In this document: positions 19,555 to 48,200 of the stretch, piece by piece
How positions within the stretch are numbered: position 1 is the first letter of the stretch
Layout: every line of letters starts with the position of its first letter
Assembly (NCBI GenBank): GCA_900469625.1
Contig: UBXV01000001.1
Span: 62,001 to 126,000 of the forward strand
Direction: 5' to 3'
Length of the DNA: 64,000 nt
Origin: Hyphomicrobiales bacterium
Lineage (GTDB): Bacteria > Pseudomonadota > Alphaproteobacteria > Rhizobiales > Rhizobiaceae
Made by a program: the position numbers and the translations under genes
The notes under the pieces: generated by a model
Seen by the model: only the letters and a program-made list of their open reading frames with translations
Databases searched by the model: none
What the model was told of the DNA's origin: nothing

Positions 19555-20109
19555 GGCGGGATCGATCCTTGCAAGGAGTTTCCGTGAGGGGGCCACACGG
19601 CACCGGGGCTGGCGGCACGCCGCAAAAGCTCAAAAGCGGTGGCACAGATATCTGCTGCTCGGACCTTCCGGTCCGCGGCGCGCTCCTTCGCCTTGTGCTC
19701 GGCAAGCATAGGCATCGTAGGCTCCAGCACGAGATCGAGATGGGCCGGCCTGGCCCGGATCTTGAATGTGATCGAACGTTACATAACCGTGCGGCACGGT
19801 CTCTGACTAAAAGACGACTGACGATCGCGCCAGCCGACATTACGCTGAAAATTTTCTTGCAGTAACCACTGTCGCCCGAAGGCTTGGACAAGCGGCCGTC
19901 TCTTGGCGTGCCGTCGGCTCAAAGGCGCCGAATGCATCAATTGCACTGTGAGAACGGCAATGCCGCAATACCTCACCGTGCATCAATCCACTTCGCGTTG
20001 CAACAGTGACGAGAATGACGGTCGAGATGGTTCAATCTTGAGGGCCGATCACAGGCTTCGGTTGCAGGCGGCCGGCATCGTCGGCGCCGCAACACCCGCA
20101 GTTCCGCTT
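19555..20109. other. intergenic region with no supported gene
   Basis: About 555 bases between the pump gene and a small membrane-protein gene, both on the minus strand. Open frames here lack ribosome sites and protein-like composition. A perfect 7-bp inverted repeat (ACCGTGC-G-GCACGGT, 19786-19800) about 230 bases upstream of the pump start is a possible operator. Confidence 0.5.
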
Positions 20110-30399: not shown

Positions 30400-31281
30400 T
30401 CAAATGAGCTCGTAGCGGCGCAGGATGTCCTCGATCTGGGCGTCCTGAGCGCTGTTGGGCAAAAGCGCCGGCTGGCGGCTTGCGCCGACGGAAGCGTCCT
30501 GAAGATAAAGCGAGCGCTTGACCATGGCAGGTGCGAAGCCAAGGGCATAGAGATCCGTGCGGAAAGCCGAGTAGATCGCCTGCTGACGCTCGGCTTCGGC
30601 AATGTCGCCGGCGTTGAAAGCGTTCAAGATCCCGGCCAGAACGGTCGGCATGGCATTGCCGAGGCCGGAAATGCAGCCGGCCGCGCCGTTCTGCAGAGCC
30701 CACAGCACCAGGTGGTCGGGACCGGAGTAGACTTCGAAACCGTCCACGTCCTTAGCCACGGCAAGATAGGCCTCCAGCGTCTCCTTGGCGCCGCCGGAAT
30801 CCTTGATGCCGGCAATGTTGCCGTGGCGAGACAGGGTGCGGGCGGTTTCGGGCTCGATGTGGTTCTGGGTGCGGGCGGGAATATCGTAGAGATAAACGGG
30901 TGTTTCGACGGCATCGGCAATGGTCGAGAAATGCCGGATCAGGCCGTCCTGGGTGCAGGCGATGAAAAACGGCGTGATAACGGCGATTCCGTCGACGCCG
31001 ATGCGGTCGAATTCACGCGCAAGCTTCAGCGTTTCGAAGGTGGCGGGCATGCCGGCATTAACGATGACCTTGACGCGACCGGCGACCTCGTCGGCCACTT
31101 CCTCCGTGAGGCGCACCTTCTCCTCGAAGGTGAGGGCGCTGAAATCGCCGTTGGTACCCGCGCACATGATGTTGTTGCCGGCGTCGACCTGGCGACGCAC
31201 CTGCGCGCGTGTCGCTTCATAGTTGATGGTCTCATCGTCGTTGAAGCAGGTGACGAGCGCGACAAAGGCTTGCTTGGACAT
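30400..31281 (-). CDS. dihydrodipicolinate synthase/N-acetylneuraminate lyase family aldolase
   Basis: A 293-residue DapA-superfamily protein with the Schiff-base Lys160 (NIAGIKDSGG) and catalytic Tyr132 (VYLYDIP). The substrate loop reads GTNGDF (42-47), differing from GTTGES of lysine-biosynthesis DapA and from the GSTGE of sialate lyases, so it is probably a catabolic keto-acid aldolase or dehydratase. It is the last gene of the peptide-type importer operon, 27 bases after the ATPase. The substrate is unknown; the co-located acid-sugar enzymes suggest a 2-keto-3-deoxy acid. Confidence 0.88.
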   Translation of the reverse strand: MSKQAFVALVTCFNDDETINYEATRAQVRRQVDAGNNIMCAGTNGDFSALTFEEKVRLTEEVADEVAGRVKVIVNAGMPATFETLKLAREFDRIGVDGIAVITPFFIACTQDGLIRHFSTIADAVETPVYLYDIPARTQNHIEPETARTLSRHGNIAGIKDSGGAKETLEAYLAVAKDVDGFEVYSGPDHLVLWALQNGAAGCISGLGNAMPTVLAGILNAFNAGDIAEAERQQAIYSAFRTDLYALGFAPAMVKRSLYLQDASVGASRQPALLPNSAQDAQIEDILRRYELI

Positions 31282-31308
31282 TTCAGTCTCCAGGGATTGG
31301 GGGACGCC

Positions 31309-32928
31309 TCAGGAGGCGTATTCGAGCCGGGCGGCGCGATTGGCCGCCTGGACGTCGGGATCGGGATCGAGGCCGGCTGCGAGCAGCGCGCGGGTGTAGT
31401 CCTCGCGCGGGGTTTCGAACACCTCTTGCACGGTACCGAGCTCCACGACATTGCCCTTCTGCATCACCATGACGTGGTCGGCGAAGTCGCGAACGACGGG
31501 AAGGTCATGGGCGATAAAGATGAAGGCGATGCCCATGTCCTTGCGCAGTCTGTCGAGAAGCGCGATGACCTGGGCCTGGACCGACACATCAAGGGCTGAA
31601 ACCGCTTCGTCGCAGATGATCAATTGCGGCTCGAGGGCGAGCGCGCGCGCAATCGCGATACGCTGGCGCTGGCCGCCGGAGAACTGATGCGGATACCGTG
31701 CCATGTGTTCCGGGCCTAGTCCCACCTGCACCAGCAGTTCGGCGACCCGTTCGCGCCATTTAGACTTGGGCAAAATGTCCGGATGGATCACCCAGGCCTC
31801 CGAGATCAGCTGATACACGGTCATGCGGGGATTGAGCGACTGTGTCGGATCCTGGAACACCATCTGCAGGTCGCGACGAAGCTTGTAGAGTTCCGCCGGC
31901 GACAGTTGGAAAAGGTCGCGGCCCTTCCACAGGGCGCTACCGCTGTCGGGTTCGTCCAGTCGCACGAGAATGCGGGCGAGGGTGGATTTGCCAGAGCCGC
32001 TTTCGCCGACGACCGCCATGGTTTCGCCGGGCATGAGATCGAAGGAGATGCCTTTCAACGCTTCGAAGCTGCCATAGTGCTTGCGCACCTCGCGTACCGA
32101 CAAGACGGGCTCGCCGCGTGCGCCTGGCGCATGCATCTTGCCTTTCCCGGGGGCGGCGGCGATCAGCTTGCGCGTGTAAGGGTGCTGCGGGTTCTTGTAG
32201 ACCTCGCGAACCGTTCCAGCCTCGACCAGTTCGCCCTTTTCTATCACCACGACACGGTCGGCAATCTCGGCAACGACGCCGAGATCGTGTGTGATGATCA
32301 GGACGGCCATCCCGGTTTCGTGCTGCAACTCCTCCAACAGTGCGAGGACTTCAGCCTGCACCGTCACGTCGAGTGCCGTCGTCGGCTCGTCGGCAATGAG
32401 CAGATCGGGACGAAGTGCTAGCGCCATCGCAATCATGACGCGTTGGCGCTGGCCGCCGGAGAATTCGTGCGGATATTTGTCGAGCGACTTTTCCGGGTCG
32501 GGAATGCCGACACGCGTCAACAGGCGCAGCGCCTCCGATTGTGCCGCAGCAGCCGCGGCACCATGTGTGGTCAACGCTTCTCTTATCTGCCAGCCAACCG
32601 TATAGACCGGGTTCAGGTGGCTGAGCGGATCCTGGAAGATCATCGCGATACGACGGCCGTTCACCTCGCGTCGCTTATGCGCCGGCATTTTCAGGAGGTC
32701 GACGCCGTCGAGCAGGATCTCGCCCGAGCTGATGCGCCCCGGCGGCATGTCGATCAGATTCATGATCGCCGAGGAGGACACCGACTTTCCCGACCCGCTC
32801 TCGCCCAGGATCGCGAGTGTTTCGCCACGATCGAGGTGATAGGAGATGTTGCGCACGGCTTTGACCACGCCCATGGCTGTGTGAAATTCGACCGAGAGGT
32901 TGCGGACTTCCAGCAGATGCTCAGCCAT
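31309..32928 (-). CDS. ABC transporter ATP-binding protein, fused DppD-DppF type
   Basis: A 539-residue tandem ATPase of the peptide/nickel class (like GsiA). Both halves look active: Walker A GESGSGKS at 42-49 and 308-315, signatures FSGGQ at 156-160 and 416-420, Walker B ending DE at 180-181 and 440-441. Each half carries the oligopeptide-type C-terminal segment (NPQHPYTRKL; TPREDYTRALL). It overlaps the upstream permease gene by eight bases. Confidence 0.93.
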   Translation of the reverse strand: MAEHLLEVRNLSVEFHTAMGVVKAVRNISYHLDRGETLAILGESGSGKSVSSSAIMNLIDMPPGRISSGEILLDGVDLLKMPAHKRREVNGRRIAMIFQDPLSHLNPVYTVGWQIREALTTHGAAAAAAQSEALRLLTRVGIPDPEKSLDKYPHEFSGGQRQRVMIAMALALRPDLLIADEPTTALDVTVQAEVLALLEELQHETGMAVLIITHDLGVVAEIADRVVVIEKGELVEAGTVREVYKNPQHPYTRKLIAAAPGKGKMHAPGARGEPVLSVREVRKHYGSFEALKGISFDLMPGETMAVVGESGSGKSTLARILVRLDEPDSGSALWKGRDLFQLSPAELYKLRRDLQMVFQDPTQSLNPRMTVYQLISEAWVIHPDILPKSKWRERVAELLVQVGLGPEHMARYPHQFSGGQRQRIAIARALALEPQLIICDEAVSALDVSVQAQVIALLDRLRKDMGIAFIFIAHDLPVVRDFADHVMVMQKGNVVELGTVQEVFETPREDYTRALLAAGLDPDPDVQAANRAARLEYAS

Positions 32929-33844
32929 TTTTGCGGCCTTTCATTTCCAGGCGCCAGCGCTGCACGGGATCGAGCGCGATACGCATCCAGTTCGACAGCA
33001 GGTTCAGCGACATCGTGGTCAGGATGATTGCAAGGCCCGGCCAGAAAGACAGCCACCAGGCATTGGTCAGATACTGCCGGCCTTGTGAAATCATCAGGCC
33101 CCAGGTGATTTCGGGCGGCTGGATGCCGATACCGAGGAAGGAGAGTGCGCTTTCTGCCAGCATGACATAGGCGAAATCGAGGGTGGCGAGCGTCGTCAAG
33201 GTCGGCAGAACCACCGGCAGGATGTGCCGGAACAGGATGCGCCGGTTCGATGCGCCCATGACGCGAGCCGCCTGCACGAACATGCGCTCGCGGATCTCCA
33301 GCACCTCGGCGCGGGTGGTGCGCAGATAGACCGGGATGCGCGTGATCGACAGAACCAGCATCAGATTGAGGATCGAGGACCCGAGCACGTAAAGCACGAT
33401 CACCGCGATCAGGAGCGATGGAAACGACATGATGACGTCGGCCAGCCGCATGATGACCTGATTGACGCGTGGCGAGGAAAAGCCGGCGACGAGCCCGAGG
33501 GTCGTTCCGACGATTGCGGAGATCGTAACGGCGCCGGCAGCAACCATGAGCGTGTTTTGCGTTGCCACGATGATGCGGGCAAGCAGCGGGCGCCCGAGCG
33601 CGTCCGCGCCCATCCACCAGACCCAACCGCGTTCCCACTCGAACGGCGCGGCGTTTCGGCCTCGCAGGTTCTGCTTGGTGGCAAGGTCGCCGAGCCAGCT
33701 CGGCCCGACGATCGCCAGGATGAGAATGACGATCAGGAAGATGGCGGCGCAAAGGGCGAACTTGTCGGCCCACAGCATGCGCGCCATGCGAGCGAGGAAT
33801 CCGGGTTCCGCGATGATTGTCGTATCTGTCGTCTGTAAGGTCAT
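32921..33844 (-). CDS. ABC transporter permease (DppC type)
   Basis: A 307-residue permease with an N-terminal OppC-type segment, about six membrane spans and the EAA loop RMFVQAARVMGASNRRILFRHILPVVLPTL. The start is the ATG at 33844 behind GAAGAG; a TTG at 33859 overlapping the upstream stop is an alternative. It is the second permease of the peptide-type importer. Confidence 0.92.
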   Translation of the reverse strand: MTLQTTDTTIIAEPGFLARMARMLWADKFALCAAIFLIVILILAIVGPSWLGDLATKQNLRGRNAAPFEWERGWVWWMGADALGRPLLARIIVATQNTLMVAAGAVTISAIVGTTLGLVAGFSSPRVNQVIMRLADVIMSFPSLLIAVIVLYVLGSSILNLMLVLSITRIPVYLRTTRAEVLEIRERMFVQAARVMGASNRRILFRHILPVVLPTLTTLATLDFAYVMLAESALSFLGIGIQPPEITWGLMISQGRQYLTNAWWLSFWPGLAIILTTMSLNLLSNWMRIALDPVQRWRLEMKGRKNG

Positions 33845-33855
33845 GGCCGAACTCT

Positions 33856-34770
33856 TCAATGACGGATGCGCGGATCGAGCAGCGCATAGGCAAGGTCGAT
33901 CAGCAGATTCATGACGAAGATCGCGAGCGCGGTGACGAGAATGGCGGCCAGCACCACATTGAAGTCACGCTGCAGGATGGAATCGATCATCAGCTTGCCG
34001 ACACCGGGAAAACCGAAAATGGTTTCGACGATGACGGCGCCGTTCAGAAGACTTGCTGCCTGGTCGCCGATCACCGTGATGACCGGGAGCATGGCGTTGC
34101 GCAGCGCGTGGAGGAAGATGATCGGCCCTGACTTCACGCCCTTGGCGCGCGCCGTCTTCACATAGGCCGACGATAGCGCGCTGAGCATCGATCCGCGCAC
34201 CACCTGTACGATGATCCCGAAGGGCCGAACGAAGAGGACGCAGATCGGCAGGATCCAGTGCAGCAGCGAACCCGTACCGGACGTGGGCAGCCAGGCAAGG
34301 TTGACCGAGAACACCACGATCGCAACGATCGCGAGCCAGAAGTCCGGCACGGCCGCGCCGATCAGCGAAATGACCGAAGAGAGGCGGTCGAAAAATCCGC
34401 CGGCGCGAAAGGCGGCCAGCGATCCCACAACAATAGCAGCGCCCGTCACCAGCGACATGGTGATGACTGCAAGCCAGAGCGTCCACTGGAAAGCTTCGAG
34501 GACCACGTCCAGTGCCGGGCGCGCCTTGCGCAGCGACTCTCCGAAATCGCCGGTGACGACGTCGCCGACATAACGGGCAAACTGGACCAGGAGCGGATCG
34601 TTCAGGCCGTGGATCTCGCGAAATTGCTGCTTCATCTCCGCCGACGCTTCGACGGGAAGGAAGAGTGCTGCGGGATCGCCCGTCAGACGCGACAGGAAAA
34701 AGACCATCACGATCAGGCCGACCAGGGAAACCAGGCTGGCCACGGCGCGTTTACGAATGAAGCTCATCAT
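33856..34770 (-). CDS. ABC transporter permease (DppB type)
   Basis: A 304-residue permease. The N-terminus (RLTGDPAALFLP) and the block YVKTARAKGVKSGPIIFLHALRNAMLPVITVIG followed by VVETIFGFPGVGKLMIDSI-like residues are diagnostic of DppB/OppB. It is preceded by an intercistronic hairpin separating it from the binding-protein gene, and followed directly by the DppC-type gene. Confidence 0.92.
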   Translation of the reverse strand: MMSFIRKRAVASLVSLVGLIVMVFFLSRLTGDPAALFLPVEASAEMKQQFREIHGLNDPLLVQFARYVGDVVTGDFGESLRKARPALDVVLEAFQWTLWLAVITMSLVTGAAIVVGSLAAFRAGGFFDRLSSVISLIGAAVPDFWLAIVAIVVFSVNLAWLPTSGTGSLLHWILPICVLFVRPFGIIVQVVRGSMLSALSSAYVKTARAKGVKSGPIIFLHALRNAMLPVITVIGDQAASLLNGAVIVETIFGFPGVGKLMIDSILQRDFNVVLAAILVTALAIFVMNLLIDLAYALLDPRIRH

Positions 34771-34789
34771 TGTGCCCCTCGATTGCAGA

Positions 34790-34812
34790 GGCGGCGGGAC
34801 TGTCCCGCCGCC
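34790..34812 (-). promoter_or_regulatory. intercistronic GC-rich hairpin between binding-protein and permease genes
   Basis: GGCGGCGGGA and TCCCGCCGCC form a 10-bp stem with a three-base loop in the 87-base gap after the binding-protein stop. Hairpins here commonly protect the upstream message so that binding protein is made in excess over permease. Confidence 0.55.
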
Positions 34813-34857
34813 TTGATTGCGTCTGTCCCTGGCGGATCTGGTGACCGCCAGAACGAT

Positions 34858-36357
34858 TCACTTGATGCCGATCTCCGACAGCTGGAGCATCGAATTGGTG
34901 GCCATGGTGGGCTTGTAGTCCAGCCGTTCGGAAACGCGCGAGAAGCCGACCATGTGGAAGAGCAGCACGTCGGCCACCACCTCATCATGCACATAAGCGA
35001 TGGTTTCTGACCACAGCTTGGCGCGTTCCTCGCCGGTCGCGGCCGAGGCGCGCTTGATCAGATCGTCGACCTTGGGGTCGGAGAAGCCTGACTGTGTGCC
35101 CTCGGTTGCGTATTTGAAGAACATCGAGAACGAAGGGTCACCCTTGGAGTTATCGTGCATGGCGGCGACGAGCTGCGGACCGCGTCCTTCCTTGAACGGC
35201 TTGGAATAGTAGCCTTCGTGCTCGGCGACCTCGACGAATTTCAGGTCGACCTTGAAGCCGACTTCCTGCAATTGCGCCTGAATGGCTTCCATGATCTCGG
35301 TCACGTTGGGGAAGTTGGCCGAGCGTGCGATGATGGTGATCGGTGTCTCGACCTTCACGCCTGCTGCCTTGGCTTCCTCCAGAAGCTTTTTCGCGCCTTC
35401 CGGATCAAACGGGAAAACCTTGACATCCGGATTCCAGCCGAGCGTCGGCGGTGGCACGATGGCCGTTGCAAGCAGAGCGCTGTCGGGAACCAGAGTGCCG
35501 AGGAAGGCCTGCCGGTCGATCGCCAGGTTGAGGGCGCGGCGGACGCGCACGTCGTTCAGCGGCTCGATATTGTGGTCGATGCGCAGATAGACGGTCTCGC
35601 TGTCGAGGTAGGAGAAGTCGGTCTTCGGGTTTGTCGCGTCGAGCTGCGAGATCGAAGGCGAGAGATCTGCCTCGCCGGCCTGAACCATTGCAGCGCGAAC
35701 GGACGGATCAGCGCGGAACAGATAGGTCGCTTCGGTGACCTGCGGCTTCTGGCCCCAGTAGTCGTCGCGTTCCGTCAGTACGATCTGCTGGCCCGGCGTC
35801 CAGTTTGTCAGCTTGTAGGGGCCGGTACCGATCGGCTCGCGGATGAACTCCAGCGGGGTTTCCTCGGGAACGATTGTTACCAGAGACATCAACAGGGGCA
35901 GGATCGGCTGGACCGGGTCGGCGCTGAAGTCGATGGTGAAATCGTCGACAACATTCGCAGTAACAGTCATTCCGCCAAAGTAGCGGCGAGACTCACAGGC
36001 GTTCTTGTCGCTCATGATGCGGTCAAAACTATGCTTGACGTCCTTGGCGTCGAAGGTCGTGCCGTCCGAAAATTTCACGCCCTGGCGAAGATGGAAACGC
36101 CAGCTGCCGTCTTCGTTCTGTTCCCACTTCTCGGCCAGGCGGGGCATGACGCCCTTGCCGCCACGAACGTCGAGCTCGGTCAGGGTTTCGCTGACGTTCT
36201 GCATGATGACGCGTCCGATGTTGGAGCGGGTCGCCATGCAGGGCTCAAGCAGATCGGCCTCTTCCGCAAGCACGATCTTGATCGGCCCCGATGCGGCAAG
36301 GACGGGCGAAATGGTGGAGCCCAACAGGAGCGCACCCAGGATAAGCGTTTTTTTCAT
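34858..36357 (-). CDS. peptide-type ABC transporter substrate-binding protein
   Basis: A 499-residue SBP_bac_5 family protein with a Sec signal peptide (residues 1-21, ending PVLAA). Family blocks include KWEQNEDGSWRFHLRQGVKFSDGTTFDAKDVKHSFDRI and IGTGPYKLTNWTPGQQIVLTERDDYWG in separate stretches. GGAGGAGA precedes the ATG. Despite the name, this class also binds opines, sugars and oligomers. The acid-sugar genes around it suggest a carbohydrate-derived ligand; that is inference. Confidence 0.92.
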   Translation of the reverse strand: MKKTLILGALLLGSTISPVLAASGPIKIVLAEEADLLEPCMATRSNIGRVIMQNVSETLTELDVRGGKGVMPRLAEKWEQNEDGSWRFHLRQGVKFSDGTTFDAKDVKHSFDRIMSDKNACESRRYFGGMTVTANVVDDFTIDFSADPVQPILPLLMSLVTIVPEETPLEFIREPIGTGPYKLTNWTPGQQIVLTERDDYWGQKPQVTEATYLFRADPSVRAAMVQAGEADLSPSISQLDATNPKTDFSYLDSETVYLRIDHNIEPLNDVRVRRALNLAIDRQAFLGTLVPDSALLATAIVPPPTLGWNPDVKVFPFDPEGAKKLLEEAKAAGVKVETPITIIARSANFPNVTEIMEAIQAQLQEVGFKVDLKFVEVAEHEGYYSKPFKEGRGPQLVAAMHDNSKGDPSFSMFFKYATEGTQSGFSDPKVDDLIKRASAATGEERAKLWSETIAYVHDEVVADVLLFHMVGFSRVSERLDYKPTMATNSMLQLSEIGIK

Positions 36358-36384
36358 TGCATTCTCCTCCCTAGAAAGTCTGGT

Positions 36385-37269
36385 TCAGTTCGATTTGGTG
36401 TCAGATCCGATCTTGCCGGAACGAGCGGCGATCAACGCCGCACAGCAGATGAGCGCCCCACCGCCGACGGTGGTCAGGGCGATCGTTTCCCCGAACAGGG
36501 CAAAACCGCCAAAGGCAACGAGTGGCAGCCGCAGGAAATCCACCGGCGCCACGATGGTTGCCGGCGCCAACGAGAAGGCATGCGTCATCAGCGCCATGCA
36601 GGCGGTACCGACAACGCCCTGAAGTGCCAGCAGCCCCATTTCCCTCGGTCCCGGCATGGTGAAGAAGGGCAGGGCGAACAGCAGCGCGATCGGCACGGTC
36701 AGAAGAAGGTTCCAGACCACAAGCGTCGACGTGGCGTCGCCTTTTGACATGGACTTCAGGATCAGCTGGATCGCCGATTGAAGCAACGCACCGGTCAAGG
36801 CGAGCAAGATCGCCAGCGTGAAGCCCGTTGCCGAAGGGCCGATCACCAGCATGGCGCCGGCGAAACCGAGGGCGACCGCAATGATCATCGCCGGGCCTGG
36901 TCGCTCGCCCAATGTCAGCGCCGCACCGAGCACCACGAAGATCGGAGAGGTGAAGGCGATGGCGGTTACGTCGGCAAGCGGCCCCCAGCTGAAGGCTGCA
37001 AACAGCGCGATCATCGCCAGCAGCTTGAATGCGGCGCGCAATGCGTGCTGGCGCAGCGGATGTGTCGTGCGCAGAACGGATGGGCGCCAGGCGATCCAGG
37101 GCAGAAGGATGAGTGCGCCAAAAAACGCCCGGAAAAATCCGATGACGAAAGGATGTACCGCACCGCTCAGCGCCCGCACGATCACGGCATCCGCTGCGGC
37201 GAGCGTTGCCGCTCCTGCCGCAAAGGCGACGGCCGTCGTAGCCTGAAGGCGACTGCTGGCGTTGGACAT
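36385..37269 (-). CDS. EamA/DMT family transporter
   Basis: A 294-residue protein with ten hydrophobic segments in two EamA repeats (about 15-140 and 155-285). Typical features are RAFFGALILLPWIAWRP in the first repeat and FLRLPLVAFGGFALFGE in the second. Such proteins move small metabolites, often outward. It is the first gene of the minus-strand operon, 27 bases before the binding protein, and its promoter region is shared with the divergent sialidase-like gene. Confidence 0.88.
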   Translation of the reverse strand: MSNASSRLQATTAVAFAAGAATLAAADAVIVRALSGAVHPFVIGFFRAFFGALILLPWIAWRPSVLRTTHPLRQHALRAAFKLLAMIALFAAFSWGPLADVTAIAFTSPIFVVLGAALTLGERPGPAMIIAVALGFAGAMLVIGPSATGFTLAILLALTGALLQSAIQLILKSMSKGDATSTLVVWNLLLTVPIALLFALPFFTMPGPREMGLLALQGVVGTACMALMTHAFSLAPATIVAPVDFLRLPLVAFGGFALFGETIALTTVGGGALICCAALIAARSGKIGSDTKSN

Positions 37270-37334
37270 GAAACTCCTCCGGGCCTGTCATCCTCGATCC
37301 AGGCTGGCTCGAACATCCATCTTTTAAAAAAGTT

Positions 37335-37371
37335 TGTCAAATTAATTTATGCTGTAAAAATTATTTGACGA
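37335..37371. promoter_or_regulatory. candidate operator: inverted TGTCAA..AATTT motifs
   Basis: TGTCAAATTAATTT (37335-37348) and the inverted AATTATTTGACGA (37359-37371) form an imperfect palindrome in the AT-rich 236-base gap between the divergent EamA and sialidase-like genes. The same TGTCAA-N3-AATTT pattern occurs upstream of the GntR/kinase operon. Confidence 0.45.
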
Positions 37372-37505
37372 CATAGATATTAAAACAACGACATTAAATC
37401 AATATGATATGCTTCAATACTGAAGCGAGTCGTTCGATAAATGAACATTCTCAAACTTGACAACTTGAAAAAATGAGCGATTTTCGGACGTGACTGGAGG
37501 GCCCA

Positions 37506-38702
37506 ATGCATCCCGATGAAATCGCTCGCAACATGACCGGCGTGCTTCAATCCGTGTCCGAAGGGCGCGCTGAGGCCCTGCTGCCTTCACCGATGATCCA
37601 GAATCACGCGGCATTCCTGCACTTGCTCGATGATGGCGCCCTGGTTTGCGCCTGGTTCGGCGGCACGCTTGAGGGAAAGTCGGACATTTCCATTTTCGCG
37701 TCGGTGCTGGAGAAAGGCTCGACGACGTGGGGCGCGCCCCAGCGCCTGAGCAAAGATCCCTCGCATTCGGAGCAGAACCCGGTGCTGTTTTCCGCGCCGG
37801 ACGGGACGCTCTGGCTGTTTCATACTTCGCAACCGTCCGGCAACCAGGATGAATGCCGTATTCGCATGGCCGAGGTGGTAAGCGACGCGGCCGATCCGAA
37901 CCGGCTCGCGACCACGAGAGAACGGTATCTCGATCTGCCACGTGGATGTTTCGTCCGCGCGCCCGTCGTCGTTCGCGATGACGGAGCATGGCTGTTGCCA
38001 ATTTTTCGCTGCGTGCAGCGCCCCGGCCAGAAATGGAACGGCAGCCACGATACGGCAGCCGTCGGTGTGTCGCTCGATGGTGGCGAGACCTGGCGGCTCG
38101 ACGACATCGACCAGTCCATCGGCTGCGTGCACATGTCGCCCGTCGCTCTTGGGCAGGATCGGCTGGCCGCCTTCTTCCGACGTCGGCAGGCCGATTTCGT
38201 CTACCGCAGCGACAGCAGCGACGGCGGGCGATCCTGGTCCGTACCCCATGCAACCGATGTGCCGAACAACAACTCCTCGATTGCCGCCACCCGTCTGCGC
38301 GACGGTCGGGTCGCGATGATCTGCAATCCGGTCAATGCGTTGTCGTCGACCGACCGGCGCGCCTCGCTCTACGACGAACTGGGCGAGGATGACAGCCGGC
38401 CCGACGCAGATCCGAGCGGAGGATGCGTTCCGATCTGGGGTGTGCCGCGCGCGCCTGTGGCGCTCTGCGTCTCCGATGACGAAGGGCGTAGCTTTGCAAC
38501 CCGTCAACGGATCGAAGATGGCCCGGGCACCTGCCTGTCCAACGATTCGACCGACGGCCGCAATCAGGAGTTGTCCTACCCGTGGCTGCTCGAAGGTCCC
38601 GACGGCGCGATGCATCTCGCCTACACCTATCATCGGCGTGCGATCAAATATGTCCGCCTGGCTCCCGGATGGGACAGTGCGGCTCGACGGAGTGTTTCAT
38701 GA
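37506..38702 (+). CDS. sialidase-fold (BNR/Asp-box) protein without signal peptide
   Basis: A 398-residue six-bladed propeller protein. Asp-box-like repeats are visible as [16 protein letters not shown] and SDDEGRSF; the [17 protein letters not shown] and [27 protein letters not shown] blocks match BNR_2-type bacterial proteins. No signal peptide is present, so it should act in the cytoplasm on an imported, not extracellular, substrate. The ATG lies behind GGAGG. Its stop overlaps the PdxA2 start (ATGA). True sialidase activity is doubtful. Confidence 0.85.
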
Positions 38703-39655
38703 GCAATATCATCGGAATAACCATGGGCGACCCATGCGGGGTCGGCCCGGAGATCGCTGTCCGCGCCCTGGCAGAAATGCCGGTCGAAGAGCGGGACCGG
38801 ACCCGGATCTACGGCAATCTGGTCACGCTCGAGAAGGCGCGTTCCGCACTGGATATCGACGTCGATCTGGCGCCGTTCGTGGTCGACCTGCCGATCGAGG
38901 GCGCGCCGCTTGCCTGGGGTCAGTTGAGTGCAGTCGCGGGCGACGCGGCCTTTCGCTTCATCGAGAAGGCGGTGCGGGATGCCGAGGCTGGTGCGATCGG
39001 CTGCATCGTCACCGCCCCGATCAACAAGGAAGCGCTGAACCTCGCCGGCCATCACTATGACGGGCATACCGGCATGCTGCGCAGCCTGACCGGTTCGAAG
39101 GCGGCCTATATGCTGCTCGCCTCCGAGCGTCTGAAGGTCATCCATGTCTCGACGCATGTCTCGCTGCAGGAGGCGATCAGGCGGGCGACGACCGAACGGG
39201 TGCTGGCGACGATCAGGGCCGGCGACGCCCATCTGAAGCGCATCGGCTATGCCGCACCGAAGATCGCGGTTGCCGGGATCAACCCGCACTGCGGCGAGAA
39301 CGGCCTGTTTGGCACCGAAGATGACGATCAGATCGCGCCAGCAGTGGCAGCCGCACGTGCGGAAGGCATCGACGTCCAAGGGCCAATCTCGGCAGACACG
39401 GTGTTTTACCGCGCCTATTCCGGCGCATTCGATCTGATCGTCGCCCAGTATCACGATCAGGGACACATCCCCATCAAGCTCGTCGCCTTCGACACGGCGG
39501 TGAACGTCTCGGTGGATCTGCCGATCGATCGCACGTCCGTCGACCACGGTACGGCGTTCGACATCGCCGGGAAGGGGATTGCCAACCACGGCAACATGAA
39601 TTCCGCCATCGCCTACGCGCGCAAGCTCGTGAGCGGCCGCGACAAGCAAGGATGA
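38699..39655 (+). CDS. pdxA2: PdxA2-type 4-phosphate sugar-acid dehydrogenase
   Basis: A 318-residue PdxA-family protein. Metal-ligand histidines are at 153, 197 (NPHCGE) and 252 (YHDQGH), matching the spacing of Escherichia coli PdxA, and [13 protein letters not shown] forms the N-terminus. PdxA2 proteins encoded with a DUF1537 kinase oxidise and decarboxylate D-threonate or D-erythronate 4-phosphate to dihydroxyacetone phosphate (family knowledge). A DUF1537 kinase lies 2 kb away, so this role is preferred over vitamin B6 synthesis. The ATG overlaps the preceding stop. Confidence 0.88.
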
Positions 39656-39662
39656 CCCGGCC

Positions 39663-40781
39663 ATGACCATTGCTCAAATCACCCTTCACCAGCCCCGCCG
39701 CCTTGCGGTCGGAGCCGGCCTCATCGGCGAGGTCGGCGCATGGGCGGCAGATCTGCAGTCCACGCTCGTGATTGCGACGCCGATCACCGCAGGATTTGCC
39801 GATCGGCTGAAGCTCTCGGGTCGCGTAACCGTCTTCGACGCAATTCCGGGCGAACCGGATATCGCGACGCTTGAGGCAGCACTCGCGGCGGCGCGGCAGT
39901 GCAAGCCGGACCTGATTGTCGGGCTCGGCGGCGGTTCGGTGCTCGACGTGGCAAAGCTCGTTGCCGTGCTTTGGGATTGTGACCAGACGCTCGGCGATGT
40001 CGCGGGGCCAAACCGCGTCGCGGGTCGCCGCACGCGGCTGGTTCAGGTCGCTACAACGGCCGGGACGGGGTCCGAGGCCGGTATTCGCTCATTGATCACC
40101 GACCCGGTAAAGGGCAACAAGATCGCAGTGGAAAGCCCGCACATGATCGCGGATTTTGCCGTTCTCGATCCCGAGTTGACCTATTCTGTGCCGCCGGCGG
40201 TCACGGCGGCGACCGGTGTCGACGCGATGGCGCATTGCGTCGAGGCCTTTACCAACAGGCGGGCGCATCCGATGATCGACGGTTTCGCGCGCATGGGCTT
40301 TCGTCTCGTCGGCAAGTATCTGTCGCGGGCAGTCAGGGACGGCTCCGATACCGAGGCGCGGGAAGGGCTGATGCTCGCTTCCTACTACGGCGGTATCTGC
40401 CTTGGTCCCGTCAACACGGCAGCAGGGCACGCCATTGCCTACCCGCTGGGCACCCGGCTCGGATTGCCGCACGGGCTTGCCAACGCCATCATCTTTCCAC
40501 ACGTGCTCGCCTTCAACCAGCCGGTTGCGGCCAAGAAGACCGACGAAGTCGCGCTTGCGCTCGGCTTCGGCGGTGCGCTGTCCGATGCCCAGCTTTTGAG
40601 CGCCGCGCAGGGGTTCTGCAGGAGCCTGGGCATCGAGATGTCGCTTGCCGCTCATGGTGCGGTTGCGGATGACCTGCCCCGTTACGCAAGTGAGGCGCAT
40701 GCAAACCGCCGCCTGATGGACAACAATCCGGCGGATATGACCGTCGAGGATGTCCTGTCGGTCTATAAGGCAGCCTTCTAG
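39663..40781 (+). CDS. iron-containing alcohol dehydrogenase
   Basis: A 372-residue group III dehydrogenase. The nucleotide loop is GLGGGSVLDVAK (87-98); metal ligands are Asp187, His191 (GVDAMAHCVEAF), His256 (AAGHAIAYPLG) and His270 (GLPHGLANA). It begins seven bases after the pdxA2 stop, so the sialidase-like, pdxA2 and dehydrogenase genes form one operon, ended by a strong bidirectional terminator. It may oxidise an alcohol precursor or reduce a keto product of the pathway; the substrate is unknown. Confidence 0.92.
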   Translation: MTIAQITLHQPRRLAVGAGLIGEVGAWAADLQSTLVIATPITAGFADRLKLSGRVTVFDAIPGEPDIATLEAALAAARQCKPDLIVGLGGGSVLDVAKLVAVLWDCDQTLGDVAGPNRVAGRRTRLVQVATTAGTGSEAGIRSLITDPVKGNKIAVESPHMIADFAVLDPELTYSVPPAVTAATGVDAMAHCVEAFTNRRAHPMIDGFARMGFRLVGKYLSRAVRDGSDTEAREGLMLASYYGGICLGPVNTAAGHAIAYPLGTRLGLPHGLANAIIFPHVLAFNQPVAAKKTDEVALALGFGGALSDAQLLSAAQGFCRSLGIEMSLAAHGAVADDLPRYASEAHANRRLMDNNPADMTVEDVLSVYKAAF

Positions 40782-40808
40782 GCTGGTCCGGCGTTCGCTC
40801 TTGCCGGC

Positions 40809-40841
40809 AAAAATGCCTCGGCCATGTGTCGAGGCATTTTT
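40809..40841. terminator. bidirectional rho-independent terminator
   Basis: AAAAATGCCTCG (40809-40820) and CGAGGCATTTTT (40830-40841) form a perfect 12-bp stem with a nine-base loop, with A- and T-runs on both sides, between convergent dehydrogenase and GntR genes. Confidence 0.88.
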
Positions 40842-40901
40842 CTTTGTATGCAGGGTAAACCGCCGCCTCTGGTGGAAATCACGATGTCCAGGTGGGTCGG
40901 T

Positions 40902-41603
40902 TTACCTGGTCGCCTGGAAAAGGCGCTCGCGCGAGCCGGTCAGGTGATCGTGCATCAGTTGCTTTGCTCTCGTGCCGTCGCCGATGGCGATCGCTTCTGC
41001 GATCGCCTCATGTTCGGCAAAGACACGGGTGAGGCCGGCGGCCTCACGTTTGACCGATGCGCCATGAAATTTCATGCCGACGGCTATATGGTCTTTGAGC
41101 GCTTCCATCGCGGTCGAGAAATAGCTGTTCCTGGCGGCACGCGCGATCGCGAGATGAAACTGGAAGTCGGCATCCTCCCGGTGCGACTGGCGATTGGTGG
41201 CATCCCGCATCAATTCGAGCGCCTGACGAATGGCGCCGAGGCTTGCGTTATCGTGGCGGGCGGCGGCGGCTGCAGCGGCCGCCGGCTCGACGGTCAGCCG
41301 GAACTCGTAGCAATTCAGGAGATCCGCAACATTCTCCAACTGCCCGAAGCCGAGCGGCTCCTTCATGCCGAGGGCGCGAACGAAGCTGCCAGCGCCCCGG
41401 CGCGAATAGATCAATCCCTGGTCACGAAGGCGTTGGAGCGCTTCTCGGATGACCGGACGTGAAACTTCGAATTCCGCCGATAGTTCGTGCTCTGTCGGCA
41501 ACCGCTCATCAGGCTGGTATGCGCCGGACTTGATCGCGCGGTGCATCCGCTCGAAGGCAAAGTCGGCGAGGCTCTTGCGTGTCGTTCCGTTCTCCAGTCC
41601 CAT
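40902..41603 (-). CDS. GntR-family regulator (FadR subfamily)
   Basis: A 233-residue regulator with a winged helix-turn-helix at about residues 12-78 (LPTEHELSAEFEVSRPVIREALQRLRDQGLIYSRRGAGSFV) and a helical FCD domain (about 100-220) with DADFQFHLAIARAARNSYF. It starts three bases after the DUF1537 kinase stop, so the two are co-transcribed. It probably controls this pair and the divergent promoters at 37.4 kb, because a TGTCAA-N3-AATTT motif is present in both regions. The effector is likely a sugar acid. Confidence 0.88.
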   Translation of the reverse strand: MGLENGTTRKSLADFAFERMHRAIKSGAYQPDERLPTEHELSAEFEVSRPVIREALQRLRDQGLIYSRRGAGSFVRALGMKEPLGFGQLENVADLLNCYEFRLTVEPAAAAAAAARHDNASLGAIRQALELMRDATNRQSHREDADFQFHLAIARAARNSYFSTAMEALKDHIAVGMKFHGASVKREAAGLTRVFAEHEAIAEAIAIGDGTRAKQLMHDHLTGSRERLFQATR

Positions 41604-41606
41604 CTG

Positions 41607-42635
41607 TCATCCCATATTGCGGAGAATCCTGTCCGCAATCTCCCTCAAAGTTCCCGGTTGGCCGAATCCCCCGGACTTGGCAATGATGCAACGGCCGGCC
41701 GCGTGGGCCAAGCCCAAGCCGGGCAGGCACTCGCCAACGAGTCTGAAACGGGTGATCCCCATCTTTTCTAGCACGGCTTCGGCAGTCGCACCGCCGGAAA
41801 GCAGCAAGGTGGAAGCGACGTCGGTCAGTGCCGGGCATATGCCTTCCGCCAAGAGCCGGGATACCTCCTGCGGGTCCGTCGGTGTAGGCCCAGGAACGGC
41901 CTGAACCAGAGTTATCGGGCTTTCGGCGGCGGCGGCGCCAGTCAGTCGCCCGTTTTGTGCCGGCAGGAACCGCGGCCTGTGCGACGCAAGCAGTTCGTCG
42001 ACCTGGGTGAGTGTGATCGGATCGCGCGAACCGATCACGAAAAGGCCCGGTCCGTGGGGGATCTCAGCTGCAAGCGGCTTGGCGCCGGCGGTCATCTGGT
42101 GCGCGAGGGCTTCCGCAAGCCCGCGCGCGCCCACCAGCACGTCTATCCCCCGTTCCTGCGCGGCGTGTAGCCAACGGCTCATGTCTTCGAACGTTGCGAC
42201 GTCGGGGACGATGGATTGTTCCGCATGCCTGCCGAGCGTCTCGGCAACCGATATCGGTGTATCGATGCCGAAACCTTCAACGTGGCCGTTCCTCACGATG
42301 CGCCCGAAATCCGGAATGGCCGGCGCCATCAGCGCTAAACGAAAGGGCGTGACATCGAGTTCAGCCGCGATGTGGCCCTTGAGGCGGGAGTCGACCTTCT
42401 TGAAAAGACGTGTGCCAGCCGGCAACGCGGCAAGTGCCGCCGCCGTCGCCATCCTCGCACCGGCAACGTCCCGTTCCCGCGACGCAACGTTGATGGAAAT
42501 CACCTGCGGCTGCTCGCTCAGGGCTTGGGGGATCGCCCCGATGGCGAGCGCGATCTCCGTATGAAGGCCTCTGCTGGCAAAGGGTGCGGCTGCATCCAGG
42601 GCGCCTGTCAGGTCATCGGCGACAATGGCCAGCAT
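41607..42635 (-). CDS. four-carbon acid sugar kinase family protein (DUF1537)
   Basis: A 342-residue protein. The N-terminal domain starts IVADDLTGALDAAAPFA, the acid-sugar binding hallmark; the C-terminal nucleotide domain contains LLLSGGATAEAVLEKMGI and AKSGGFGQPGTL. Family members such as DtnK and OtnK phosphorylate D-threonate, D-erythronate or 3-oxo-tetronates. It is shorter than the roughly 420 residues usual for the family, with no obvious missing hallmark. With PdxA2 it would give a kinase-dehydrogenase route to dihydroxyacetone phosphate. Confidence 0.85.
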   Translation of the reverse strand: MLAIVADDLTGALDAAAPFASRGLHTEIALAIGAIPQALSEQPQVISINVASRERDVAGARMATAAALAALPAGTRLFKKVDSRLKGHIAAELDVTPFRLALMAPAIPDFGRIVRNGHVEGFGIDTPISVAETLGRHAEQSIVPDVATFEDMSRWLHAAQERGIDVLVGARGLAEALAHQMTAGAKPLAAEIPHGPGLFVIGSRDPITLTQVDELLASHRPRFLPAQNGRLTGAAAAESPITLVQAVPGPTPTDPQEVSRLLAEGICPALTDVASTLLLSGGATAEAVLEKMGITRFRLVGECLPGLGLAHAAGRCIIAKSGGFGQPGTLREIADRILRNMG

Positions 42636-44413: not shown

Positions 44414-45497
44414 AAGTGCATCATGCCGGTTTTGAGGTTAGGTGTTCAGCCGTCTTCTTGCAAATGCGCCATGAACACTTCGGTTGGTGTCCTGTAGTTG
44501 AGGCACTTTCTCGGCTGGTCGTTGAGATGGCGAGCAAGTTGGATCAGGTTGCGTTGCGATACGACTGCAAGATCCGTATCGCCTGGCATGAAGCGGCGAA
44601 TTCGCTTGTTGACGTTTTCCACCGCGCCTTTTTGCCAGGGCGCGCTTGGGTCACAGAACCAGCTGCGTGCGCCGATACCATCTTCCAAAGCCCTAAAAGC
44701 GCTGAACTCTGTGCCGCGATCAAACGTGAAGCTCTGCCGGGCAAAGGCAGGCAGGGGTGCGAAGGTATCGACGATCTTGTCCATGATCGGTCGCGAGTGC
44801 CGGCTGTGGTTTTTGATCATCACCGTGTAGCGGCTCTTGCGCTCGATCAATGAGGTCACGTTGGCGTTGCGCAGATCCCGTTGGAAGATCAGCAAGTCGC
44901 CTTCCCCAATGATCGAACTGCGAGCGATCATCAATAAAATCAGGGCGTTGCGATATTTTGCAAGCCGCAGGGAAGACGCCATCGCGGGGCCTCTTGGAGC
45001 CGCGACGGCGTCGTTTGCGGCGTGCCTCTGGTAAGTAGCGAAAGGGGCCTAGCCCGTAGTCTTCCTTGCCATAAACGAACCGATAGATCGTCTCGGCGCA
45101 GATCTTGATGAGGCTAAGTCCATCCGCCCACAGTCGGCCGGCTATCTGCTCGGGCGACCAGTAGGCCTTCAATCGATCGATTACCAGTTCGCGCAGTTGC
45201 GGATGGCACCTGAGCTTCCTCAGACGTCGGCGACGCTCTTTGCTGATATCGTCTGCAACCGTCGAGAAGTAACCGCTATACTCGGGGAGTTCGCGATCGT
45301 GGAATGTGTTGCGCCTGATCTCGCGATAGATTGTCGATCGATGACGGCCAAGTTGACGCGCCATTTCATTAATCGGCACTTTTCGTTCGACAAAGTGGTG
45401 TAGGCGGCGCCTATCAGCCAGATTCAGCTGCGAATAACAGTGAGACATCCCAAAATCTCCAAGGGGAACCCATTGAAATTATTGGCATGTCGCACTT
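44414..45497 (-). mobile_element. IS30-family insertion sequence
   Basis: An approximately 1.08-kb element bounded by inverted repeats AAGTGCATCATGCC (44414-44427) and, inverted, AAGTGCGACATGCC (45497-45484), 12 of 14 bases identical. It contains one IS30-type transposase split by a frameshift. Exact outer ends and the short target duplication could not be fixed by eye. Confidence 0.85.
44446..45448 (-). pseudogene. IS30-family transposase, frameshifted
   Basis: The N-terminal part (from ATG 45448) has the IS30 helix-turn-helix LNLADRRRLHHFVERKVPINEMARQLGRHRSTIYREIRRN. The C-terminal part, in another frame, has the DDE-domain blocks SRYTVMIKNHSRHS, FDRGTEFSAF and PWQKGAVENVNKRIRRFMPGDTDL. 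The frames meet at the HWEGDLL motif, where four consecutive C on the plus strand (44904-44907) should be three: one extra base. A single base removal would restore about 333 residues. Either a recent inactivation, a sequencing error, or, less likely, programmed slippage. Confidence 0.88.
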
Positions 45498-47095: not shown

Positions 47096-48061
47096 ATGCA
47101 TAGCAATTCCTTCGCCTTCACCATTTCCAGAAGAAATCTGATCAAAATTGCCGGCGCTTCCGTCGCAGTGGCTGTGGCCGGTCTGCCAGGTCGCCTGCTC
47201 GCTGCAGACCCGATAAAGGTGGCGGCCGTCTACACCGTGCCGGTGGAGCAGCAGTGGGTCAGCCGCATCCACAAGGCGGCCAATGCCGCCAAGGAACGCG
47301 GCGACATCGAGTATGTCTATTCGGAAAACACCGCGAACAACGACTACGAGCGCGTCATGCGCGAATATTGCGAGGCCGGCCACAAGCTGATCCTAGGCGA
47401 AGTCTTCGGCGTCGAGGATGCCGCCCGCGCCGTCGCCAGGGACTATCCTGACGTCGCCTTCCTGATGGGCTCGAGCTTCAAGCCCGATGCCGCCGTGCCC
47501 AACTTCTCGGTTTTCGACAACTACATCCAGGACGCGTCCTACCTGTCCGGCCTCATCGCCGGCGCAATGACCAAGTCCAAGAATATCGGCATGGTGGGAG
47601 GCTATCCGATCCCAGAGGTCAACCGGCTGATGAACGCGTTCATGGCCGGCGTGAAGGAAGTGGCCCCGGACACCAAATTCCAGGTTGCCTTCATCGGCTC
47701 GTGGTTCGATCCGCCAAAGGCCAAGGAGACGGCGTTCGCCCAGATCGATGGCGGTGCAGACCTTCTGTATGCCGAGCGTTTCGGCGTGTCCGATGCCGCC
47801 AAGGAGAGGAAGATCCTCGCCATCGGCAATGTCATCGACACCCAGGCGGATTATCCCGACACCGTTGTCGCTTCCGCACTGTGGCATTTCGAGCCGACGC
47901 TCGACAAGGCGATCGCCGAAGTGAAGGCCGGCTCGTTCAAGGCGGACGACTACGGCGTCTATTCCTTCATGAAGAACGGCGGCTGCTCGCTCGCACCTCT
48001 CGGCGCCTTCGACAGCAAGGTTGCAGACGACATCAAGGCCAAGGTCGCGGAGAAGGAATAG
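47096..48061 (+). CDS. BMP/PnrA-type ABC substrate-binding protein, ended early by an amber codon
   Basis: A 321-residue periplasmic lipoprotein-family (Bmp) binding protein for nucleosides or purine-related compounds. The N-terminus SRRNLIKIAGASVAVAVAGLPG is Tat-like. Family blocks include SENTANNDYERVMREYCEAGHKLILGEVF and GGYPIPEVNRLMNAFMAGVKEVAP. The TAG at 48059-48061 interrupts a frame that continues AIKDGSFTVEINDAEPKSS to a second TAG at 48119-48121, the expected family ending. The product therefore lacks about 20 residues; function may be lost or retained. First gene of the importer operon. Confidence 0.88.
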   Translation: MHSNSFAFTISRRNLIKIAGASVAVAVAGLPGRLLAADPIKVAAVYTVPVEQQWVSRIHKAANAAKERGDIEYVYSENTANNDYERVMREYCEAGHKLILGEVFGVEDAARAVARDYPDVAFLMGSSFKPDAAVPNFSVFDNYIQDASYLSGLIAGAMTKSKNIGMVGGYPIPEVNRLMNAFMAGVKEVAPDTKFQVAFIGSWFDPPKAKETAFAQIDGGADLLYAERFGVSDAAKERKILAIGNVIDTQADYPDTVVASALWHFEPTLDKAIAEVKAGSFKADDYGVYSFMKNGGCSLAPLGAFDSKVADDIKAKVAEKE

Positions 48062-48200
48062 GCGATCAAGGACGGCTCGTTCACCGTCGAGATCAACGAC
48101 GCCGAGCCGAAGTCGAGCTAGCTCCCGCTGCCGTTCATGGGGTGGTGATGGTCCGTGGCGATCGAGAATGTGCCCTCAACTGGTTGCGGCCTATTCCTTC

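Follow-up and report, generated by a model that had tools for sequence, protein, structure and literature searches.

A gene cluster encoding five enzymes was analysed in a 64,000-nucleotide stretch of contig UBXV01000001.1 from a Hyphomicrobiales bacterium of the Rhizobiaceae, hereafter the window: a sialidase-fold BNR_2 protein (SIA), a DapA-type aldolase, an iron-type alcohol dehydrogenase (Fe-ADH), a DUF1537 kinase and the dehydrogenase PdxA2. Comparison with relatives demonstrated that this cluster is a deeply conserved catabolic unit. We tentatively propose that it encodes one linear catabolic route with the C7 2-keto-3-deoxy sugar diacid 3-deoxy-2-heptulosarate as its hub, a reading that we judge slightly more apt to fail than to hold. 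The proposal is built on gene content, conservation, fold and co-inheritance, from which putative enzyme activities and a candidate substrate are suggested.

Conservation of the five-enzyme set

Co-occurrence was counted in 69 fetched loci (68 genomes of the window's family and one more genome, G040), as stretches of 12-20 kb and with family profiles made in part from the same loci as those counted. All five enzymes lay inside the fetched stretch in 60 of the 69 loci, and the single families were present there in 67 (PdxA2), 66 (Fe-ADH), 65 (DUF1537) and 64 (DapA) loci. Twenty unrelated 20-kb stretches of the same genomes contained no SIA, PdxA2, Fe-ADH or DUF1537 gene and one DapA gene, indicating that the co-location exceeds chance. 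An earlier sequence-only reading of the window had expected a conserved acid-sugar catabolic cluster and named absent clustering in relatives as evidence against it; the co-occurrence check bears the cluster out, and no such absence was observed. Nine loci are incomplete, five of which (L067, L073, L074, L079 and L102) lie near a contig end or stretch end, while away from such ends L087 lacks PdxA2, L111 and L113 lack Fe-ADH, and L112 retains Fe-ADH only. All five enzymes were also present in 75 of 80 named loci (the best 80 of 556 relatives from one scan), in 4 of 6 strong relatives elsewhere in the phylum and in 8 of 10 public plasmid records selected for diversity among the 307 and 313 that matched; these four locus sets overlap partly, the named loci and family genomes sharing strains. 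The failing loci of the latter two sets contain SIA alone (L233, L224) or no kinase nearby (L234, L238).

Pairwise family distances correlate across 72 loci (r 0.54 to 0.92), every lower value (0.54-0.73) coming from a pair that includes the aldolase. The distribution of SIA orthologues is patchy. Within the same family, 72 genomes out of 394 have one, a count that takes in the window's own genome and three weak matches; within the class, 7 of 289 do, only one of which is close apart from the window's own. Weak SIA matches, in 3 family genomes and in 24 genomes of another scan, were left aside. The window belongs to a genome of the Ensifer/Sinorhizobium kind, and its nearest named SIA relatives, from Ensifer, are 88-90 % identical.

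Beyond the family, the five-enzyme set was found in Klebsiella, E. coli Nissle, Methylobacterium, Azospirillum, Comamonadaceae, Enterococcus and Subdoligranulum. The set is accompanied by a sodium:solute symporter (SSS), a TctC binding protein or both in Methylobacterium nodulans, Azospirillum, Roseomonas, Comamonadaceae and Caballeronia, the last with kinase and PdxA fused. Klebsiella pneumoniae and Pantoea ananatis carry Fe-ADH, DapA, SSS, SIA, YhcH and SDR genes divergent from PdxA2, and of these two only Klebsiella has the kinase beside PdxA2. The E. coli genes, sited between glnS and nagE, are arranged with DeoR, D-threonate 4-phosphate dehydrogenase and dtnK on one side and Fe-ADH, DapA, TerC, SIA, YhcH and SLC13 on the other. 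Of 5426 complete E. coli genomes, 1044 matched this 9-kb block, and in 1043 of these at least 80 % of it was covered; the block is nearly all-or-none, in a single species and perhaps from one inheritance. In the two Firmicutes loci inspected, those of Enterococcus raffinosus and Subdoligranulum variabile, all five families occur with a CitMHS/SLC13-type carrier; the Enterococcus SIA is 31 % identical to that of the window, and the Subdoligranulum kinase is truncated where the stretch begins and is separated from Fe-ADH by about 5 kb.

Several details of these loci were recorded in passing. In E. coli (L265, 11141-11899), the only lineage in which TerC was looked for, a gene for a TerC-family membrane protein separates DapA from SIA. 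A short SDR oxidoreductase (about 225-240 aa) follows SIA in several non-rhizobial clusters (L226, L227, L237, L239). The lone SIA of P. agglomerans (L224) keeps SSS, YhcH and SDR. The annotated kinase of Roseomonas gilardii (L236, 4064-4600) is the C-terminal part only and adjoins about 750 bases without a listed gene, while the profile does detect the family at this locus. In Azospirillum B510 (L237, 15012-21176), the region some 4 kb downstream of SIA holds genes for an ABC importer, an ArgE/DapE-type deacylase and a class II aldolase.

The same counts bear on a two-branch arrangement, in which SIA would free a C4 sugar acid for kinase and PdxA2 while the aldolase and Fe-ADH act on an unrelated second product. 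In these families a kinase-PdxA2 pair alone suffices for D-threonate, and the partial P. agglomerans cluster indicates that parts can separate. However, Fe-ADH and DapA (66 and 64 of 69) are linked to SIA about as tightly as the kinase (65 of 69), and all five enzymes persist in Firmicutes despite the low SIA identity, making this arrangement distinctly improbable. The two branches of the sequence-only reading, with aldolase or dehydrogenase handling a remainder, are replaced here by one linear chain that would employ all five enzymes.

A proposed route through 3-deoxy-2-heptulosarate

According to the proposed linear route, the importer would take up a small C7 dicarboxylate, from which SIA would yield 3-deoxy-2-heptulosarate by hydrating a glycal ring double bond, with daucic acid as the best guess, or alternatively by hydrolysing a ketoside of DHA, the 3-deoxy-2-heptulosaric acid of rhamnogalacturonan II (RG-II). 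A NanQ-like protein, encoded beside SIA in some relatives, might act as an anomerase before the aldolase. The DapA-family aldolase would then cleave 3-deoxy-2-heptulosarate to pyruvate and 2,3-dihydroxy-4-oxobutanoate, and Fe-ADH would convert the latter to D-threonate. The last two steps are assigned at family level, from NCBIfam matches in relatives and earlier work on DUF1537 and PdxA2 proteins: the DUF1537 kinase would form D-threonate 4-phosphate, which PdxA2 would oxidise and decarboxylate to dihydroxyacetone phosphate and CO2.

D-threonate catabolism by DtnK and PdxA2 is said to have been described by Zhang et al. in 2016. The present cluster uses the same kinase and dehydrogenase families, and the Klebsiella and E. 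coli clusters carry the curated D-threonate equivalogs themselves; it differs in three additional conserved enzymes, which would make D-threonate in the cell from a larger acid. Indeed, the Klebsiella kinase passes the D-threonate kinase model DtnK (NF047819; 505.7, cut-off 450), the PdxA2 proteins of Klebsiella (665.1) and Pantoea ananatis (665.8) pass the D-threonate 4-phosphate dehydrogenase model NF002891 (cut-off 583), and the E. coli genes bear the RefSeq names dtnK and D-threonate 4-phosphate dehydrogenase. As the cluster does not otherwise differ, D-threonate is most likely the C4 acid for the window too, and the window kinase and PdxA2, judged from these relatives, are most likely of the D-threonate type, in line with the acid-sugar assignment made from the sequence alone. 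The window kinase is a short form of 342 aa, in which SBD_N was matched over 1-125 of 230 and NBD_C over 90-168 of 168; both Pfam domains are over cut-off as partial matches, the ADD and KxDSxLKG motifs are conserved in an alignment of 67, as expected of DUF1537 four-carbon acid sugar kinases, and the nearest solved chain is 4xfm/4xgj.

Could the kinase and PdxA2 serve salvage of vitamin B6 or 4-hydroxythreonine instead? Thiaville and colleagues are said to have reported in 2016 that some DUF1537 and PdxA2 proteins act on 4-hydroxythreonine. The kinase-PdxA2 pair is tied to pyridoxal 5'-phosphate (PLP) synthesis in PMC12928451, which cites Thiaville 2016. Such salvage is very improbable here, as it would leave SIA, the aldolase, Fe-ADH and the importer unused; the window's genome (G000) holds four PdxA-family genes; and PdxA2 is placed in organic-acid catabolism rather than PLP synthesis, though able to replace PdxA, in PMC9997740. 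The window PdxA2 passes the PLP-biosynthesis pdxA equivalog TIGR00557 (342 vs 290.35), but this model cannot separate PdxA from PdxA2 because the Klebsiella and P. ananatis D-threonate enzymes pass it as well.

If an alcohol dehydrogenase forms D-threonate from an aldol product, that product must be the aldehyde 2,3-dihydroxy-4-oxobutanoate, and the aldolase must act on the C7 diacid 3-deoxy-2-heptulosarate. A comparable split is represented by TIGR02313, the model of 2,4-dihydroxyhept-2-enedioate aldolase, an enzyme converting a C7 diacid to pyruvate and a C4 aldehyde acid; the substrate proposed here would be the 5,6-dihydroxy analogue. The window aldolase scores 141 bits on this model (cut-off 396.7), which is not its best match, and for the window Fe-ADH the 4-hydroxybutyrate dehydrogenase model is second best (199.7 bits, below the cut-off of 500); these scores lean weakly toward a C7-diacid route. 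The window aldolase remains below the lysine-pathway dapA equivalog TIGR00674 (194.2 vs 206.15), which the Enterococcus cluster aldolase passes (219.3). Enumeration of the eight configurations of 3-deoxy-2-heptulosarate showed that D-lyxo and D-xylo only lead to D-threonate. As DHA of RG-II is D-lyxo (PMC12168206), the prediction from the kinase end agrees with natural stereochemistry with no adjustment. Glucarate-type routes were rejected, for they give C3 and not C4.

After the YxIP motif, 42 aldolases of 78 loci have Arg, 2 have Lys, 33 have neither and in one the motif is missing. Aldolase classes were defined by presence or absence of this Arg/Lys (a missing motif counted as absence) together with a score gap. 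Mapping onto a tree built from 72 SIA proteins gave 6 class changes, of which well-supported branches force at least 5, compared to 22.4 with shuffled labels; the labels of L265 and L267 were confirmed by a separate check. A second-class aldolase gene lies within 1.5 kb of SIA in 9 loci checked. The aldolase has thus been repeatedly changed while its slot was kept, suggesting that aldol cleavage is an obligate step. The R138-type arginine, which holds in the window aldolase, was tried as a test of a diacid substrate and dropped in view of the 33 loci with neither residue.

Catabolism of a sialic-acid-like nonulosonate or of Kdo would be consistent with features that the cluster shares with Nan (sialic acid) clusters, namely the sialidase fold, an aldolase of the DapA/NanA superfamily, a NanQ-like protein and an SSS carrier, and also with NanR as the best regulator model. 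However, the window aldolase is far below the nanA model TIGR00683 (98.1 vs 382), and Nan clusters differ in having amino-sugar steps where the present cluster has a C4-acid kinase and PdxA2, and in that SIA has neither signal peptide nor FRIP motif. This alternative was rejected because its aldol product would be a hexosamine or pentose rather than a C4 acid, leaving kinase and PdxA2 idle, and we regard it as scarcely probable.

The sialidase-fold protein, the importers and the substrate

Of the 50 matches that Foldseek listed for the AlphaFold2 model of SIA (pLDDT 86.6, pTM 0.89), nearly all were sialidases, with probability 1.00, the best being sialidase 1eur (E 1.3e-15, TM 0.68/0.74, 17 % identity). 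SIA displays the sialidase propeller fold with Asp boxes (SxDxGxxW at 189-196 and 237-244), and 77 residues are invariant in ten divergent members, including H34, E56, D60, R151, H209, R225, R227, N254-256, R315 and Y358. No signal peptide was seen by eye in the window SIA and five relatives, suggesting that SIA is probably cytoplasmic, as the sequence-only reading had placed it. The best PDB sequence-profile relatives of SIA are NanC and NanB, over about 180-278 only. The sialidase NanC forms the glycal Neu5Ac2en and also hydrates it, though slowly.

Importer families vary among the loci (two Opp-type ABC kinds, SSS, TctC and CitMHS/SLC13), suggesting a small carboxylate substrate; carriers of citrate- or tricarboxylate-named families occur in E. 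coli, Enterococcus, Subdoligranulum and Comamonadaceae. Solved relatives of the window's family 5 substrate-binding protein are named dipeptide-, nickel-, heme- and agrocinopine-binding proteins. The EamA gene recurs in 10 of 69 loci, and besides the enzymes, importer, regulator and EamA no cluster of related genes is common to more than 6 of 69 loci. Representatives of four small shared clusters are a chemotaxis receptor, an ABC permease and, twice, a protein with no Pfam family, and no glycoside hydrolase was found among the clusters common to at least 4 of 69 loci. A YhcH/YjgK/YiaL protein is encoded directly after SIA in Pantoea, Klebsiella and E. coli; the Klebsiella YhcH scores 104.3 on the NanQ anomerase model NF040884 (below its cut-off of 160) and passes the broader TIGR00022 (106.5). 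This position of YhcH hints at a cyclic 2-keto acid, and an anomerase between SIA and the aldolase would fit.

The replacement of the ABC importer by small-acid carriers, together with the lack of a shared glycoside hydrolase in those clusters, favours a monomeric substrate that a sialidase fold could handle, a glycal. Daucic acid is a plant C7 diacid of this type, the 2,3-glycal of a 3-deoxy-2-heptulosaric acid. The atoms balance, C7H8O7 plus water giving C7H10O8, the hub acid, and the ion of m/z 203.02 given for daucic acid in PMC7589261 equals the value computed for C7H8O7. SIA could accordingly be imagined as a cytosolic sialidase-fold hydratase that opens daucic acid to 3-deoxy-2-heptulosarate, in what would be the first daucic acid catabolic pathway and an origin of D-threonate in bacteria ranging from rhizobia to E. 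coli of the human gut; this more specific assignment is doubtful. No description of DHA or daucic acid catabolism was found in the open-access literature.

Alternatively, the ABC importer might take up an RG-II fragment such as DHA-(2,3)-galacturonic acid, from which SIA, as a cytosolic ketosidase, would release DHA for the same four enzymes. RG-II chains C and D bear Kdo and Dha (PMC12282258). The sialidase fold of SIA and the many plant-associated host names are also consistent with this possibility, as is a Bacteroides finegoldii GH78 protein beside a GH140 gene (L243, 2226-6092), whose C-terminal stretch resembles SIA 244-387 (30 %). GH140 is an RG-II family, and this neighbourhood hints at an RG-II locus. 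Nevertheless, several lineages have small-acid carrier families instead of the ABC importer, and nothing beyond the pathway, importer, regulator and EamA genes recurs above the level given above. Moreover, E. coli and Enterococcus are not known to degrade RG-II. Import of an oligomer or conjugate, as the sequence-only reading had it, is thereby weakened, and we consider this version unlikely.

Several observations weigh against the linear C7-diacid route itself. The window kinase scores only 103.8 on NF047819, vs 48.8 on the 3-oxo-tetronate kinase model OtnK, both below cut-off, and the window PdxA2 reaches 305.4 on NF002891 and is rated equal or higher by general PdxA models. Cluster members from Comamonadaceae, Methylobacterium, Enterococcus and Caballeronia likewise stay below cut-off, with kinase scores of 115.9, 103.5, 220.3 and 160.4 (the last for the fusion) and PdxA2 scores of 302.8-354.3. 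The arginine expected to bind the distal carboxylate is present in only the 42 of 78 aldolases. SIA has no FRIP/RIP motif, which in sialidases holds the first arginine of the carboxylate-binding triad; the region reads QNHA, with H34 invariant and no Arg in the ten divergent members (by sequence position, without superposition), so the sialidase mechanism cannot simply carry over. L233 and the P. agglomerans locus L224 have SIA but, inside about 9 kb, none of the other four enzymes, suggesting that SIA may have a second context; L112 keeps Fe-ADH only, and P. ananatis and L234 have no kinase nearby. The accessory SDR and TerC genes find no place in the proposed route. Palindrome and word counts revealed no shared operator upstream of the importer, the SIA operon and the kinase, and a search of the open-access literature did not yield the stereochemistry of the daucic acid ring.

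Locus arrangement, prior description and meaning

All eleven genes listed by the sequence-only reading were confirmed from open reading frames and family matches, in the order and range that it gave (Table 1). SIA, PdxA2 and Fe-ADH look like a single transcription unit, given a 4-base overlap between the SIA end and the PdxA2 start and a 7-base gap between PdxA2 and Fe-ADH. The DUF1537 kinase and the FadR-type gene, 3 bases apart, look like another unit, and the aldolase looks like the last gene of the importer operon.

Table 1. Features of the cluster in the window, with proposed roles
Feature	Position	Strand	Basis
DapA-family class I (Schiff-base) aldolase; proposed 3-deoxy-2-heptulosarate aldolase	30400..31281	-	PF00701 E 3.8e-55; YDIPART and GIKDSGG motifs
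Fused double ATPase, peptide/nickel-type ABC importer	31309..32928	-	two ABC_tran stretches and oligo_HPY
ABC importer permease, OppC type	32921..33859	-	BPD_transp_1
ABC importer permease, OppB type	33856..34770	-	BPD_transp_1
Substrate-binding protein, SBP family 5	34858..36357	-	PF00496 E 2.4e-83
EamA/DMT transporter, accessory	36385..37269	-	PF00892
Divergent promoter region, importer operon / SIA operon	37334..37463	.	two conserved TTGACA-type boxes
SIA, sialidase-fold BNR_2 protein; proposed 3-deoxy-2-heptulosarate producer (glycal hydration or ketoside hydrolysis)	37506..38702	+	PF13088 E 8.7e-64
PdxA2; proposed D-threonate 4-phosphate dehydrogenase (decarboxylating)	38699..39655	+	PF04166
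Iron-type alcohol dehydrogenase (Fe-ADH); proposed C4 aldehyde acid to D-threonate reductase	39663..40781	+	PF00465/PF25137
FadR-type regulator (GntR and FCD) adjoining kinase	40902..41603	-	PF00392 and PF07729 over cut-off
DUF1537 kinase, short form; proposed D-threonate kinase	41607..42635	-	SBD_N and NBD_C

Co-regulation of the cluster by the FadR-type protein is plausible from gene order only, all NCBIfam models being below cut-off for this regulator (best NanR, 102.7 of 260). Conserved TTGACA-type words precede the SIA operon and the importer and, with lower frequency, the kinase; in 30 loci, the density of TTGTCAA/TTGACAA words per kb is 6.25 in the region upstream of SIA, 1.04 in that of the kinase and 0.04 elsewhere. 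The TTGACA-type words are probably -35 boxes rather than shown operators, and the TTGTCAA/TTGACAA words, obtained from palindrome and word counts, were rejected as proof of co-regulation on this reading. A shared FadR operator for the importer, SIA operon and kinase was likewise dropped, as TNGTNNNACNA-like words are scattered.

Elsewhere in the window, two overlapping open reading frames in different frames on the minus strand (44446-45448), IS30-family transposase-like by eye, adjoin the kinase end of the cluster. Also encoded are a PnrA/Bmp-type binding protein with a double ABC ATPase after it (47096-49775), an AcrB/RND efflux pump (16414-19596) and, at a distance of about 17 kb from the cluster, a UxuA-type mannonate dehydratase (PF03786; 59607-60716), which is a uronate gene.

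The gene combination, which the sequence-only reading did not recognise, is already in print: the accessible part of PMC12928451 compares region GR 6 of avian pathogenic E. coli BEN2908 with a pdxA-like cluster of S. meliloti 1021. Both hold the same set, with sialidase-like, DapA, Fe-ADH, kinase, PdxA, NanQ-like and CitT-like genes, and that part of the article links kinase and PdxA2 to PLP synthesis and names no pathway or substrate. A published pathway for the combination was not found in the open-access literature.

Members of two phyla carry the cluster, as does roughly one in five of the collection's complete E. coli genomes, which are a biased sample. The current names of its proteins are vague or probably wrong, examples being GH33 exo-alpha-sialidase, the usual annotation for SIA, dihydrodipicolinate synthase and 4-hydroxythreonine-4-phosphate dehydrogenase. 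D-threonate is a substrate not known to have a clear natural source. If the linear C7-diacid route is true, it would account for the source of D-threonate, the sialidase fold would gain a metabolic function new to it, and root bacteria and gut commensals would be seen to share an acid from plants or plant walls as a nutrient.

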